A model generated the notes under the pieces. The model was not told the DNA's origin and did not search any database. It worked only from the letters and a program-made list of their open reading frames with translations. The translations under genes were made by a program, and so were the position numbers. Of a stretch of DNA of 48,732 nt, positions 45,671-48,732 are shown piece after piece. Source of the stretch: an uncultured Alphaproteobacteria bacterium (GTDB taxonomy: Bacteria; Pseudomonadota; Alphaproteobacteria; CAAHEQ01; UBA3637); assembly GCA_949286465.1 (NCBI GenBank), contig CASECI010000010.1, forward strand, positions 1 through 48,732, read 5' to 3'. Each line of letters begins with the position of its first letter. The stretch's first letter is position 1.

Positions 45671-47107
45671 ATGAAACAAAGTTTTTTTTCTGTTTCTTTT
45701 TATTTCATAGGGATATTTATATTATCCCTTTTGTTTTTTTTCCCGTTTTGGATATCTTGGCACTACGGAGACGTTACACTTGATCAGCTTTTATTTCATA
45801 TAAATACCCCTTGGAGCGGATTAAACCCCAAGTTATTGTTGTTAATAATAAAAGAATGGTTCTTTCTATCTATTACACTGACAGCACTCTTTTTCTTCAT
45901 TCCCTTTTTAGGCTCGAAAAAACTAAGACTTTGGATAAATCAACATATTAAACTCTTTTTCTTTTTATTTTTCTTATGTGTTATCTGGTCTTTTAACTAC
46001 AACTTTAATTTAGTAAGATGGTATAATCAAATATTTGGAAAGCCTACAAGCTTCTATGAAGAAAATTATGTATATCCGGAAAAGTTGGAAATTGCTTTTC
46101 CTCAACAAAAAAGAAATATTATTTACATTATGGTTGAATCTATGGAAACAACCTTTTCAATAGTAGGAAATAAAAAATCCAATTTAATTCCAGATTTACA
46201 AAACTTAGCTAAAGAAAACATCTCTTTTAAAGGCTATTACCCTTCTGTCGGTACACAATGGACAAGTGCAAGTATGGTTGCAGGCTTATGTGGTTTTCCT
46301 CTTAAATCTTTAAGCACAAAAACTGTTCAATTTTCAACATTCCTTCCTAAAGTAAAATCACTGACAGATATTTTAAAAGAAAATGGCTATCAAAATATCT
46401 TTATGATGGGTTCTGATGCGAACTATGCGAATAAAAAAGTTTTTTTAAAAGATCATGGATTTGATGAGATTATAGATTTTCCGATTGGTAAAAGAAATTC
46501 AACTCCTTCTTCTATGTTTGGTTCTGAATGGGGTTTAAAAGATCAAGTGTTATTTGAGCAGGCCAAACAAAAATTAATTTCTTTATCCAAAACAAACACT
46601 CCTTTTTTTATGGGGATTCTAACACTAGATATGCATCCACCTGAAGGATATTTAGATCCCCATTGTCCAATCATAGATGATGATTATTTTAATAATGTGG
46701 TTTACTGTACTAACTTGCTTGTTACAGATTTTGTAAAATGGGTTCAAAGCCAACCATTTTCAGAAAACACCACAATTGTCATTGTTGGAGATCACTTTGC
46801 ATGGGGAGCAGATAAATACAAAGAAAAAAGAGCGCTATTAGAAAAAAACACACGCGAAGTTATAAATATTATTATCAACCCAATAAAATCCCCTATTCGA
46901 ACAGAACGTAAGTGGGCTATGTATGATATGGCTCCAACAGTGTTAGAAAGCATAGGAGCTGAGATACCTGGACATCGTTTTGGATTAGGAACTTCTTTAT
47001 TTTCAGAAGAACCTACTCTTTTAGAAAAATATCCTCCTCAAGAGGTAGACATACTTATTGAAAGCAAATCGCATCTTTATCAAACCTTATGTGGTATAAA
47101 AGAATAG
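45671..47107 (+). CDS. OpgB/LtaS-like membrane phosphoglycerol transferase, paralogue
   Basis: A 478-residue paralogue of the divergent neighbour. Transmembrane segments (first 125 residues) precede the catalytic domain: IIYIMVESMETTF (metal-binding Glu), GTQWTSASMVAGLCGFPL with the nucleophile Thr, TLDMHPPEGYLDP and VIVGDHFAWG. The final part has the family's RFGLGTSLFSEEPTLLE, nearly the same as the RLALGTSLFSGRPTLLE of the neighbour. The two genes share a 99-base divergent region from ATG to ATG. Ribosome binding site AAGAAGGG. Substrate unknown; envelope or periplasmic glycan decoration is likely. Confidence 0.86.
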   Translation: MKQSFFSVSFYFIGIFILSLLFFFPFWISWHYGDVTLDQLLFHINTPWSGLNPKLLLLIIKEWFFLSITLTALFFFIPFLGSKKLRLWINQHIKLFFFLFFLCVIWSFNYNFNLVRWYNQIFGKPTSFYEENYVYPEKLEIAFPQQKRNIIYIMVESMETTFSIVGNKKSNLIPDLQNLAKENISFKGYYPSVGTQWTSASMVAGLCGFPLKSLSTKTVQFSTFLPKVKSLTDILKENGYQNIFMMGSDANYANKKVFLKDHGFDEIIDFPIGKRNSTPSSMFGSEWGLKDQVLFEQAKQKLISLSKTNTPFFMGILTLDMHPPEGYLDPHCPIIDDDYFNNVVYCTNLLVTDFVKWVQSQPFSENTTIVIVGDHFAWGADKYKEKRALLEKNTREVINIIINPIKSPIRTERKWAMYDMAPTVLESIGAEIPGHRFGLGTSLFSEEPTLLEKYPPQEVDILIESKSHLYQTLCGIKE

Positions 47108-47110
47108 TAC

Positions 47111-47139
47111 TTGCTTATATTCTTCTTTTGATGTATAGA
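47111..47139 (+). promoter_or_regulatory. Possible promoter of T-box/aspS transcript
   Basis: TTGCTT (47111-47116) and TATAGA (47134-47139) are 17 bases apart. The predicted start near 47146 would cut into the 5' arm of the lower stem I helix drawn for the T-box (47141-47145), so either the true start is upstream or that helix is not used. Confidence 0.35.
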
Positions 47140-47140
47140 T

Positions 47141-47305
47141 AGGTCACAAGCTTTGATACTGCAGACACAGTGGAGCTGAAAGAAGAAAGGAGCATTGCTC
47201 TGATTAGACCTTTCCGGGTTTGCCCGTTATAGCGCGTTTTAAGGCGGTTACGATAAAATCAAGACCGTAAAGTAAGGTGGCACCGCGAACGAAATTCGCC
47301 CTTAC
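47141..47305 (+). ncRNA. T-box riboswitch leader of aspS
   Basis: The core AAGGTGGCACCGCG (47274-47287) matches the T-box consensus. Flanking bases form the antiterminator-type helix: GTAAGG (47272-47277) with CCTTAC (47300-47305) and GCG (47285-47287) with CGC (47297-47299), bulging TGGCACC. TGGC can pair with a GCCA acceptor end, as expected for tRNA-Asp or tRNA-Asn with discriminator G. A CGGG-TTTG-CCCG hairpin (47215-47226) followed by GTTATAGC resembles stem III. Stem I may be closed by AGGTC (47141-47145) and GACCT (47207-47211), with GAT (47202-47204) a candidate Asp specifier. No U-run terminator follows, so regulation may be translational: CCTT at 47300-47303 could instead pair with the AAGG of the ribosome binding site (47321-47324). 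Confidence 0.85.
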
Positions 47306-47332
47306 ACTTAAACAAAACAAAAGGATAAAAAA

Positions 47333-48732
47333 ATGCATACATACAGAACACATACCTGCGCAGCGCTTCGCTCAGAAGATGCCGGCAAACAAGTTCGTTT
47401 ATCTGGTTGGGTTCATTCTAAACGTGACCATGGTAATTTATTATTTATAGATTTACGCGATCATTATGGTTTAACACAATGTGTTGTGGATACTTCTTCC
47501 CCGTGTTTTTCCAAGCTAGAGAAAGTTCGTCCCGAAAGCGTTATTCGTATTGATGGAAAAGTACTTTTACGAGAAGGCAACACAATCAATGAGAAACTTC
47601 CTACAGGCCATATAGAAGTTGCAATAGAAGATATTGAAGTCTTAGGAGAAGCAGATGTTCTGCCTATGCAAGTAAATGGCGATGCCTCAGATTTATCAGA
47701 AGAACAAAGACTGACTTATCGTTTTTTAGACTTACGTCGTGAAAAAGCCCATGCTAACATTGTTCTGCGTTCTAATTTCATTCGTTCTTTAAGAGAACGG
47801 ATGTGGGCTCAAGGCTTTACAGAATACCAAACGCCTATTTTAACAGCTTCTTCACCAGAAGGTGCTAGAGACTTTTTAGTTCCTAGTCGTTTACATCCAG
47901 GTCAGTTTTATGCATTACCACAAGCACCTCAACAATTTAAACAGTTGCTGATGGTATCAGGATTTGACAGATACTTTCAAATCGCTCCTTGCTTCCGTGA
48001 CGAAGACAGCCGAGCAGACCGTAGTCCAGGAGAGTTCTATCAATTAGATATAGAAATGTCTTTTGTGACCCAGCAGGATATTTTTGATGCTGTTGGCCCT
48101 GTTATGCAAGGAGCTTTCCAAGAATTCGCAGGAGATCGAAAAGTTTCTCCTTATCCATTCCGAGAAATTCCATTTGATGAAGCTATGTTAACTTATGGAA
48201 CAGATAAGCCAGACTTACGCAATCCATTATTGATAAAAGATGTCACAGAAGTTTTCCGTGGTTCTGACTTTGGTATTTTTGCAAAGATGGTTGAAGAAGG
48301 AGCGTTTATCCGTTCTATAAAAGCGCCACAGGCTTCAGAAAAACCTCGCTCTTGGTTTGACAAACTTGGTAATTGGGCAAAAGAAGAAGGTTTTGGAGGT
48401 CTCGCATATATCGGCTTTACAGCAGAAGGGACAAAAGGACCTGTGGCAAAAAATCTCAGCTCCGAACGCATTGAACAAATCAAACAAATCAATGATGTCA
48501 AAGATGGTGATGTTGTATTCTTTGTCGCAGGGAAAGGGTTGAAAACAGCAAAATTCGCCGGCCGAGTTCGGACAACTTTAGGAGAAGAGTTAGGATTAAT
48601 TGACAGTAATCAATTTATTTTCTGTTGGATTACAGATTTTCCTTTCTATGAAGAAAATGAAGAGACAGGCGCAATTGAATTTTCACACAACCCCTTCTCT
48701 ATGCCTCAAGGTGGATTAGAAGCTTTAAATAC
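47333..48732 (+). CDS. aspS: Aspartyl-tRNA synthetase (3' end cut by window edge)
   Basis: The visible 466 residues are the N-terminal four-fifths of a bacterial-type class II AspRS. An OB-fold anticodon domain (about 1-110, [19 protein letters not shown]) is followed by the catalytic domain with [43 protein letters not shown] and [17 protein letters not shown]. The bacterial GAD insert begins near residue 285. The [10 protein letters not shown] form is typical of Alphaproteobacteria, where AspRS often also charges tRNA-Asn. The ribosome binding site AAGGA (47321-47325) lies seven bases before the ATG and downstream of the T-box. No stop is reached in the window. Confidence 0.97.

Follow-up and report, generated by a model that had tools for sequence, protein, structure and literature searches.

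A probable Class III T-box leader on aspS in an uncultured alphaproteobacterium and a wider set of related leaders

The window, by which we mean the whole stretch of 48,732 nucleotides analysed, closes with aspS, whose product scored 609.8 bits against NF001750 (cut-off 443) and 469.6 bits against TIGR00459 (cut-off 373.85). The open reading frame upstream of the leader ends at 47107, and the leader elements lie between the two genes. With a candidate promoter directly upstream, the T-box described here would be the first element of its transcript. The window's promoter candidate is not above chance, as 183 of 200 shuffles reach 7/12, and a stricter scan of the same region found no promoter; the best promoter-like match in the corresponding region reaches at least 9/12 in 16 of the 19 distinct leaders of the family. 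The features are as follows, with percentages given over alignment cells (one pair in one leader) of these 19 leaders.

47111–47139, + strand: candidate promoter TTGCTT-17-TATAGA, just past the stop of the upstream gene; 7/12 consensus positions
47149–47177, + strand: ultrashort Stem I, made up of a base helix, a kink-turn-like element and the specifier helix
47149–47151/47175–47177, + strand: Stem I base helix, 3 bp; 91.2% of cells paired
Within Stem I, + strand: kink-turn-like UUUGAU/GGA, between the base and specifier helices
47158–47161/47168–47171, + strand: specifier helix, 4 bp; 100% paired, 19/19 leaders
47162–47167, + strand: hexanucleotide apical loop CAGACA, which caps Stem I; no distal Stem I beyond it
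47164–47166, + strand: specifier GAC (Asp), followed by A; GACA invariant in 19/19
47178–47214, + strand: Stem II, GAAAG/CUUUC; 5/5 pairs in 19/19 leaders and seven sequence forms, as counted with our own script with the 3' offset picked per sequence
47183–47187 and 47205–47208, + strand: Stem II S-turn strands AAGAA and UAGA; both in 19/19
47215–47235, + strand: Stem IIA/B pseudoknot; a CGGG/CCCG hairpin whose loop (47220–47222) pairs with 47233–47235
47244–47268, + strand: Stem III, from the predicted fold
47272–47305, + strand: antisequestrator, two helices flanking a bulge
47272–47277/47300–47305, + strand: helix A1; 100% of cells paired
47285–47289/47295–47299, + strand: helix A2; 100% of cells paired
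47278–47284, + strand: T-box bulge UGGCACC; UGGCAC invariant in 19/19, UGGC complementing the tRNA end GCCA
47305–47309, + strand: CACUU tail, candidate alternative partner of AGGUG (47275–47279) that would partly occlude the bulge
47320–47325, + strand: ribosome-binding site AAAGGA, its end 7 nt upstream of the ATG
47333–48732, + strand: aspS, bacterial-type aspartate–tRNA ligase, running past the window end

The first-pass annotation had read this leader as a T-box and proposed the Rfam model RF00230 as a check on it and on related genomes. We found that RF00230 aligned over all 219 of its positions to 47144–47306 of the + strand (56.9 bits, E 9.1e-12 in a search of 601 bases), and that the core, the antiterminator-type helix and the TGGC motif lie where they had been placed. 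In a search of the whole genome (1.24 Mb in 58 contigs, 98.81% complete, 5.79% contamination), the aspS leader was the single T-box match at E ≤ 1 (E 4.5e-12). The leader does not reach the RF00230 gathering score of 93, and a gathering-level Rfam scan of the whole window returned no match; thus, routine or automatic annotation would miss this T-box. The low score is probably explained by the missing distal Stem I, as 73 model positions are represented by 3 bases in the alignment. The folding energy of the leader is unremarkable (z −1.57, with 13 of 200 shuffles equally stable).

Among the 43 genomes of the family, RF00230 matched 20 (E about 1e-6 or better), distributed over 5 of 13 genera, and none of the 43 exceeded the gathering score. 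A T-box with a GAC specifier stands upstream of aspS in all 20 family loci, and, two leaders being identical, these gave 19 distinct rows for alignment. In one locus (L087, G010:C20), a lipoprotein-like ORF of 128 aa follows the T-box, and aspS comes second, 389 nt past the end of the T-box match. A second match in genome G004 (18 bits, E 0.046) was dropped, as it has no UGGCAC core.

Over 25 named pairs in 19 leaders, 98.7% of cells were paired as compared to 91.5% in shuffles (reached by 0 of 500), and changes on both sides of a pair occurred in 33 cells as compared to 10.3 (again 0 of 500). Seven pairs showed a both-sided change, against 4.9 in shuffles (5/500), and there were 17 further pair types against 14.9 (40/500). 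When the pairing partners were slid by 1–3 columns, only 29–54% of cells remained paired. The specifier helix occurs as ACUG/CAGU, GCUG/CAGC, GCCG/CGGC, CCUG/CAGG, and CCGG/CCGG, and the antisequestrator shows compensatory changes of the kind GUAAGG/CCUUAC, GCAAGG/CCUUGC, and GUCAGG/CCUGAC. The apical loop has 6 nt, but 5 nt in two of the 19 leaders. The IIA hairpin is invariant, leaving no covariation available there; the cells of the IIA/B pseudoknot are 98.2% paired over the 19 leaders, while in the window two of its three pairs form, with one IIB mismatch. Stem III differs in sequence between genera with its pairing retained, a comparison made by eye and not formally counted, as the alignment shifts by one base at this point. 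An RNAalifold drawing had neither Stem II nor the IIA hairpin and paired CCUU, from the 3' strand of Stem II, with AAGG past the pseudoknot; it was set aside because Stem II pairs at 5/5 in all 19 leaders with varying sequence.

As described in the literature, Class III T-boxes have a short Stem I without IDTM, a specifier in an apical loop of 5–6 nt and a required Stem II, and are mostly translational, Nocardia ileS being an example (PMC10482949; this and the other papers cited by number are drawn on in excerpt). Together, the full-length RF00230 match, the covariation and the conservation in the family bear out the reading of a T-box on aspS, and the leader is a conserved, Class III-like and probably functional T-box. 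We consider it likely that the aspS leader is a T-box of Class III architecture; its GAC specifier and UGGC bulge are predicted to bind uncharged tRNA-Asp, upon which more AspRS would be made, probably through translation initiation.

The first-pass annotation had further taken T-boxes to be rare in this phylum and had suggested the transfer of a regulatory RNA alone onto a resident gene. Rarity was borne out: under strict filters, with no more than 5 candidates scored in each genome, RF00230 at E ≤ 1e-4 matched a single genome among 398 sampled Pseudomonadota, and this was the window's own. The resident aspS is alphaproteobacterial, as had been supposed, given its position among Alphaproteobacteria in the protein tree; the named loci retrieved by the aspS protein beyond its own family are mostly Acetobacteraceae and Rhodospirillales, alongside a small number of differently titled MAGs. 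In an aspS tree of 60 rows, built without L115 and the fragments L119–L122, the family held together (support 96/97). The T-box carriers formed two clades, of 7 rows (100/99) and of 12 rows (100/100), with T-box-less kin between them and several of the intervening forks supported only at 80–92. This tree is compatible either with a resident aspS having gained the T-box twice or with a single gain followed by about eight losses.

Because 23 of the 43 family genomes have no RF00230 match, the T-box is dispensable. Nineteen of these 23 gave an aspS locus and four gave no aspS match; the family model R1 found nothing at E ≤ 1 in the 19 loci, nor in 75 further loci (L007–L081), a few of which have little upstream sequence. 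A shared upstream block, F0 or F1, was present in 15 of 17 T-box-less aspS loci as compared to 0 of 18 T-box loci (the T-box locus L083 could not be oriented). As the shared block is confined to T-box-less loci, the presence of the T-box coincides with a relocation of aspS. In family f1, the aspS genes of T-box genomes lie in many different places. Genome G011, which is 98% complete, gave no aspS match at E ≤ 1e-50, its AspRS being either divergent or missing.

Among 385 sampled Alphaproteobacteria (7 candidates scored per genome), R1 at E ≤ 0.01 matched at least 7: four members of the family, G131, G229, and G339. The last of these (26 bits) was dropped, being coding sequence by eye. Thus, aspS T-boxes also occur in two other alphaproteobacterial groups, that of G131 and the separate order of G229, which makes an older alphaproteobacterial origin possible. 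Whether these groups inherited the T-box from a common ancestor and repeatedly lost it, instead of acquiring it more recently on a resident aspS, is a separate question from its function; inheritance is a plausible, if not the favoured, account. It fits the occurrence in three groups but requires about eight losses within the family, where T-box-less lineages split the two clades (some forks reaching only 80–92), and it sits poorly with the upstream block common to T-box-less loci and absent from T-box loci. Transfer of the regulatory RNA alone onto the resident aspS, as the first-pass annotation suggested, is one possible account.

As to how the leader might act, a scan of the + strand from 46900 to 47400 turned up no terminator-like site (one weak site lies on the − strand), in keeping with the claim of the first-pass annotation that an intrinsic terminator is missing. 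With no terminator, ribosome access is the likelier target, and control is probably translational. In the mechanism that we propose, uncharged tRNA-Asp would stabilise the antisequestrator at 47272–47305, and Asp-tRNA would not. Without uncharged tRNA, the 3' strand of A1 and the CACUU tail would pair anew, AGGUG/CACUU closing the bulge, and the freed CCUU would mask the ribosome-binding site. An alternative OFF state in the window's clade would have GCGUUUU (47234–47240) masking AAAAUGC at the start codon. Of the whole proposed mechanism, we are least sure of the OFF structure.

The predicted ensemble energies of the window, −46.3 kcal/mol with the antisequestrator formed and −46.0 kcal/mol with A1 penalised or forbidden, are equal within error; translational T-boxes have been described as conformationally bistable (PMC7583486). 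The A1-forbidden fold contains the AGGUG/CACUU helix, which takes up part of the bulge and frees CCUU, and a CACUU-type tail is compatible with this pairing in 19 of 19 leaders by reading of the alignment. The CCTT/AAGG pairing put forward earlier as a sequestrator was found as a match, with 4 bp at the ribosome-binding site in 13 of the 19 leaders and 3 bp in the other 6, but in the window it is not above chance, being equalled in 129 of 500 shuffles of the ribosome-binding region. When A1 is forbidden, this pairing has a probability of 0.17 in the window and of more than 0.5 in 7 of 19 leaders. For the ribosome-binding AGG of the window, the model predicts an exposure of 0.76 with A1 and 0.78 without it; on loss of A1, exposure drops by at least 0.1 in 7 of the 19 leaders, whereas L094 shows a rise.

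The GCGUUUU/AAAAUGC helix has 7 bp in the window (47/500 shuffles as good). In the window's clade, the start-codon helix is matched by 6 to 69 of 500 shuffles in five of seven leaders (6/500 in G016), and in the other clade by 84/500 or more. The start codon of the window is predicted to be paired in both states, so that in the model this helix is uncoupled from A1. We also tried, and set aside, a UUUAAG/CUUAAA helix between the segments before Stem III and after A1: it has 6 bp in the window (41/500) and 9 bp in two g9 leaders (3 and 9/500), three more leaders giving 40–45/500, L082 160/500, and 12 leaders of the other clade 66–295/500.

Full Class III-like T-boxes with an AAC specifier (Asn) also stand before the gene of an archaeal-type AspRS (L135–L140, L142, and L143). 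In six of eight such sister T-boxes, the 3' strand of A1 and the ribosome-binding region form a helix of 7–9 bp. In L140, CCUUGUGUU of the A1 strand pairs over 9 bp with AACACAAGG at the ribosome-binding site, which none of 500 shuffles equalled; five further sisters have 7–8 bp (4–13/500), a helix that extra A residues keep from reaching AGG, and L137 and L138 have only 4 bp to the ribosome-binding region. The principle of sequestration is clearer in these sister T-boxes than in the window. Their pairing, the 14 nt that separate the end of A1 from the ribosome-binding site in the window, the lack of a terminator-like site on the + strand and the mostly translational habit of Class III (PMC10482949) all argue against an action on transcription, through Rho-dependent or other termination in the leader. 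We regard such an action as unlikely, even though the window sequestrator is weak, the predicted exposure of its ribosome-binding site is unchanged and class I and II T-boxes generally act on transcription (PMC10482949). Returning to translational control, no switch in mechanism of the kind that the first-pass annotation had invoked is needed, because Class III is mostly translational already.

Which tRNA is read depends on the codon. A pattern search of the genome showed that tRNA-Asp (anticodon GTC) and tRNA-Asn (GTT) both have G73 and end in GCCA, so the UGGC bulge fits both and the specifier must choose; GAC fits the anticodon GTC of the genome's tRNA-Asp. In addition, asnS exceeded its cut-off in none of the 20 genomes searched, while 7 of 14 controls passed. 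For this reason, AspRS probably also serves tRNA-Asn, with Asn made on the tRNA by the transamidation route. An AspRS that charges both tRNAs would make Asp and Asn codons two sensible inputs.

Among the loci read by script and by eye, many of them close kin and thus not independent, bacterial aspS had GAC upstream in 56 and AAC in 3 (L127 in G131, L132 in G423, and L133 in G442), while the archaeal-type AspRS had AAC in 8 and GAC in 2. These counts take repeats with 120 identical upstream bases once and exclude L144 (AAC, gene cut off) and L087 (other ORF first). Three of the archaeal-type enzymes scored 428.6, 460, and 452.4 bits against NF003483, ‘aspartate--tRNA(Asn) ligase’ (cut-off 353), and 354.2, 364.5, and 379.6 bits against TIGR00458, aspS_nondisc (cut-off 368.4); the remaining ones were recognised by sequence motif alone. 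In four genomes with two enzymes that were checked (G480, G497, G463, and G518), bacterial aspS goes with GAC and the archaeal-type gene with AAC in every case. In L134 (G499) and L131 (G432, 72% complete), the archaeal-type enzyme is the sole AspRS picked up by the asnS profile, and the T-box carries GAC. No archaeal-type AspRS was found among the asnS-profile matches of G131, G423, and G442.

GAC is invariant in all 19 family leaders and pairs fully with tRNA-Asp, and the loop has no AAC, all of which makes it very unlikely that the leader senses tRNA-Asn, or tRNA-Asp and tRNA-Asn both. This alternative draws on the probable charging of both tRNAs by AspRS, the G73 and GCCA end that they share, and the AAC relatives on bacterial aspS; GAC could also meet the anticodon GUU with one G-U pair, and one T-box from Clostridium is known to read both tRNA-Asn and tRNA-Glu (PMC4052509). 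That the leader is a mere remnant, a T-box fold without present regulation, is most improbable, since its score under the Rfam cut-off and the family genomes without a match are outweighed by compensatory changes in Stem I, Stem II, A1, and A2 and by invariant GACA and UGGCAC, all across five genera.

Alongside the tRNA-Asp-sensing leader that we favour for the window, a shorter kind of T-box is present among its relatives. In the order of G229, R1 matched 44 of 114 genomes at E ≤ 0.5. The model R2, made from the short T-boxes, matched 161 of 201 genomes at E ≤ 1e-4, with family f69 throughout among the matches listed; as R2 also scores the window leader at 31.8 bits, a few of its matches could be of the full kind. 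The short T-boxes (L128:1500–1596, L141, L145–L159, and L202–L205) are about 100 nt long, carry GAC and stand upstream of bacterial aspS where this was read. In L128, L202, and L204, a tRNA-like sequence lies upstream of the short T-box, ending in GGGCACCA and with the anticodon loop CTTGGTAAG (Thr by eye).

Alignment of 17 short leaders showed a short Stem I with GAC and a normal antisequestrator, with a linker of 22–26 nt replacing Stem II, IIA/B, and Stem III. The pairs are formed in 95.3% of cells, and 11 pairs changed on both sides as compared to 6.5 in shuffles (0/500), with 25 further pair types against 23.0 (72/500). All 17 short leaders share an invariant GGUGCC downstream, which is exactly complementary to the GGCACC of the bulge; a further leader, L205, has GGUGUC in its place. 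By eye, GGUGCC can also pair inside its own hairpin, the other strand of which fits the ribosome-binding site in matching variants (UCCC/GGGA, ACACC/GGUGU, and GCGCC/GGUGU); in L155 and L157, only 3 bp connect this strand with the ribosome-binding site. We infer that the GGUGCC hairpin would relay the signal from the bulge to the ribosome-binding site.

None of the four published classes, as described in PMC10482949, accommodates the short T-boxes. The wider family, and above all its Stem II-less forms, is more surprising than the T-box of the window. We lean toward the view that translational Asp/Asn T-boxes form an unrecognised radiation in uncultured Alphaproteobacteria with small genomes. 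It would include a fifth class of about 100 nt with a short Stem I and no Stem II, in which the tRNA would be read by codon and acceptor end alone and the signal passed on by the GGUGCC relay. As part of the same view, the specifiers in two-AspRS genomes (GAC for the bacterial, AAC for the archaeal-type enzyme) would show a division of tRNA-Asp and tRNA-Asn charging.

Published surveys place T-boxes mainly in Gram-positive bacteria, a range that is now extended to Alphaproteobacteria. Short-Stem-I translational T-boxes have been sought chiefly in Actinobacteria, the translational ‘class II’ model of TBDB having been applied to reference genomes of Actinobacteria and to already known T-boxes whose Stem I is truncated (PMC7778990); translational ileS T-boxes are on record from Actinobacteria (PMC1262725). 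The conservation on aspS in Alphaproteobacteria widens both the range and the amino acid repertoire of short-Stem-I T-boxes. The Stem II-less relatives contradict the present view of Stem II as functionally indispensable where Stem I is short (PMC10482949). Where Asn is made on the tRNA, the GAC/AAC pattern would make these leaders a read-out of the tRNA that each AspRS serves.

Among the literature matches listed, which mostly leave out subscription papers, no title or abstract reported T-boxes in Alphaproteobacteria, and the one listed match that pairs the two terms has, in the passage concerned, the speF motif as its subject (PMC11477304). In the literature searched, we found no report of a Class III T-box in this phylum or for Asp. 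The 2008 survey gave T-boxes in 2 of 125 proteobacterial genomes, on leuA of Geobacter and Pelobacter (PMC2494555); these are proteobacterial too, but they precede leuA and are called typical T-boxes in that text. The window leader resembles RF00230 T-boxes in its end-to-end alignment (E 9e-12) and differs from them in the missing long distal Stem I and in its 56.9 bits as compared to 93. Unlike transcriptional Class I and II T-boxes, it has neither a long Stem I with distal IDTM nor a terminator-like site on the + strand.

The T-box of the tRNA-dependent transamidation operon of Clostridium acetobutylicum was reportedly the subject of work by Saad in 2012 and 2013. It shares with the leaders described here the Asp/Asn charging route and, with the AAC relatives, an Asn-type specifier; it differs in being a transcriptional T-box of a Firmicute that binds tRNA-Asn and tRNA-Glu (PMC4052509, PMC4206432). 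The closest likeness is to Class III. The window leader departs from Class III ileS T-boxes in its host, an alphaproteobacterium and not an actinobacterium, in its gene and codon, aspS with GAC, and in its weak sequestrator. Like T-boxes of the Nocardia farcinica ileS type, it has a short Stem I, a specifier loop of 5–6 nt and no elbow-binding IDTM, followed by a Stem II with S-turn, a kink-turn, a IIA/B pseudoknot and an antisequestrator with a UGGN bulge. Apart from a demonstrable sequestrator, all of the structural features that we tested are present, and by its anatomy, as read from the sequence, the window leader belongs in Class III.
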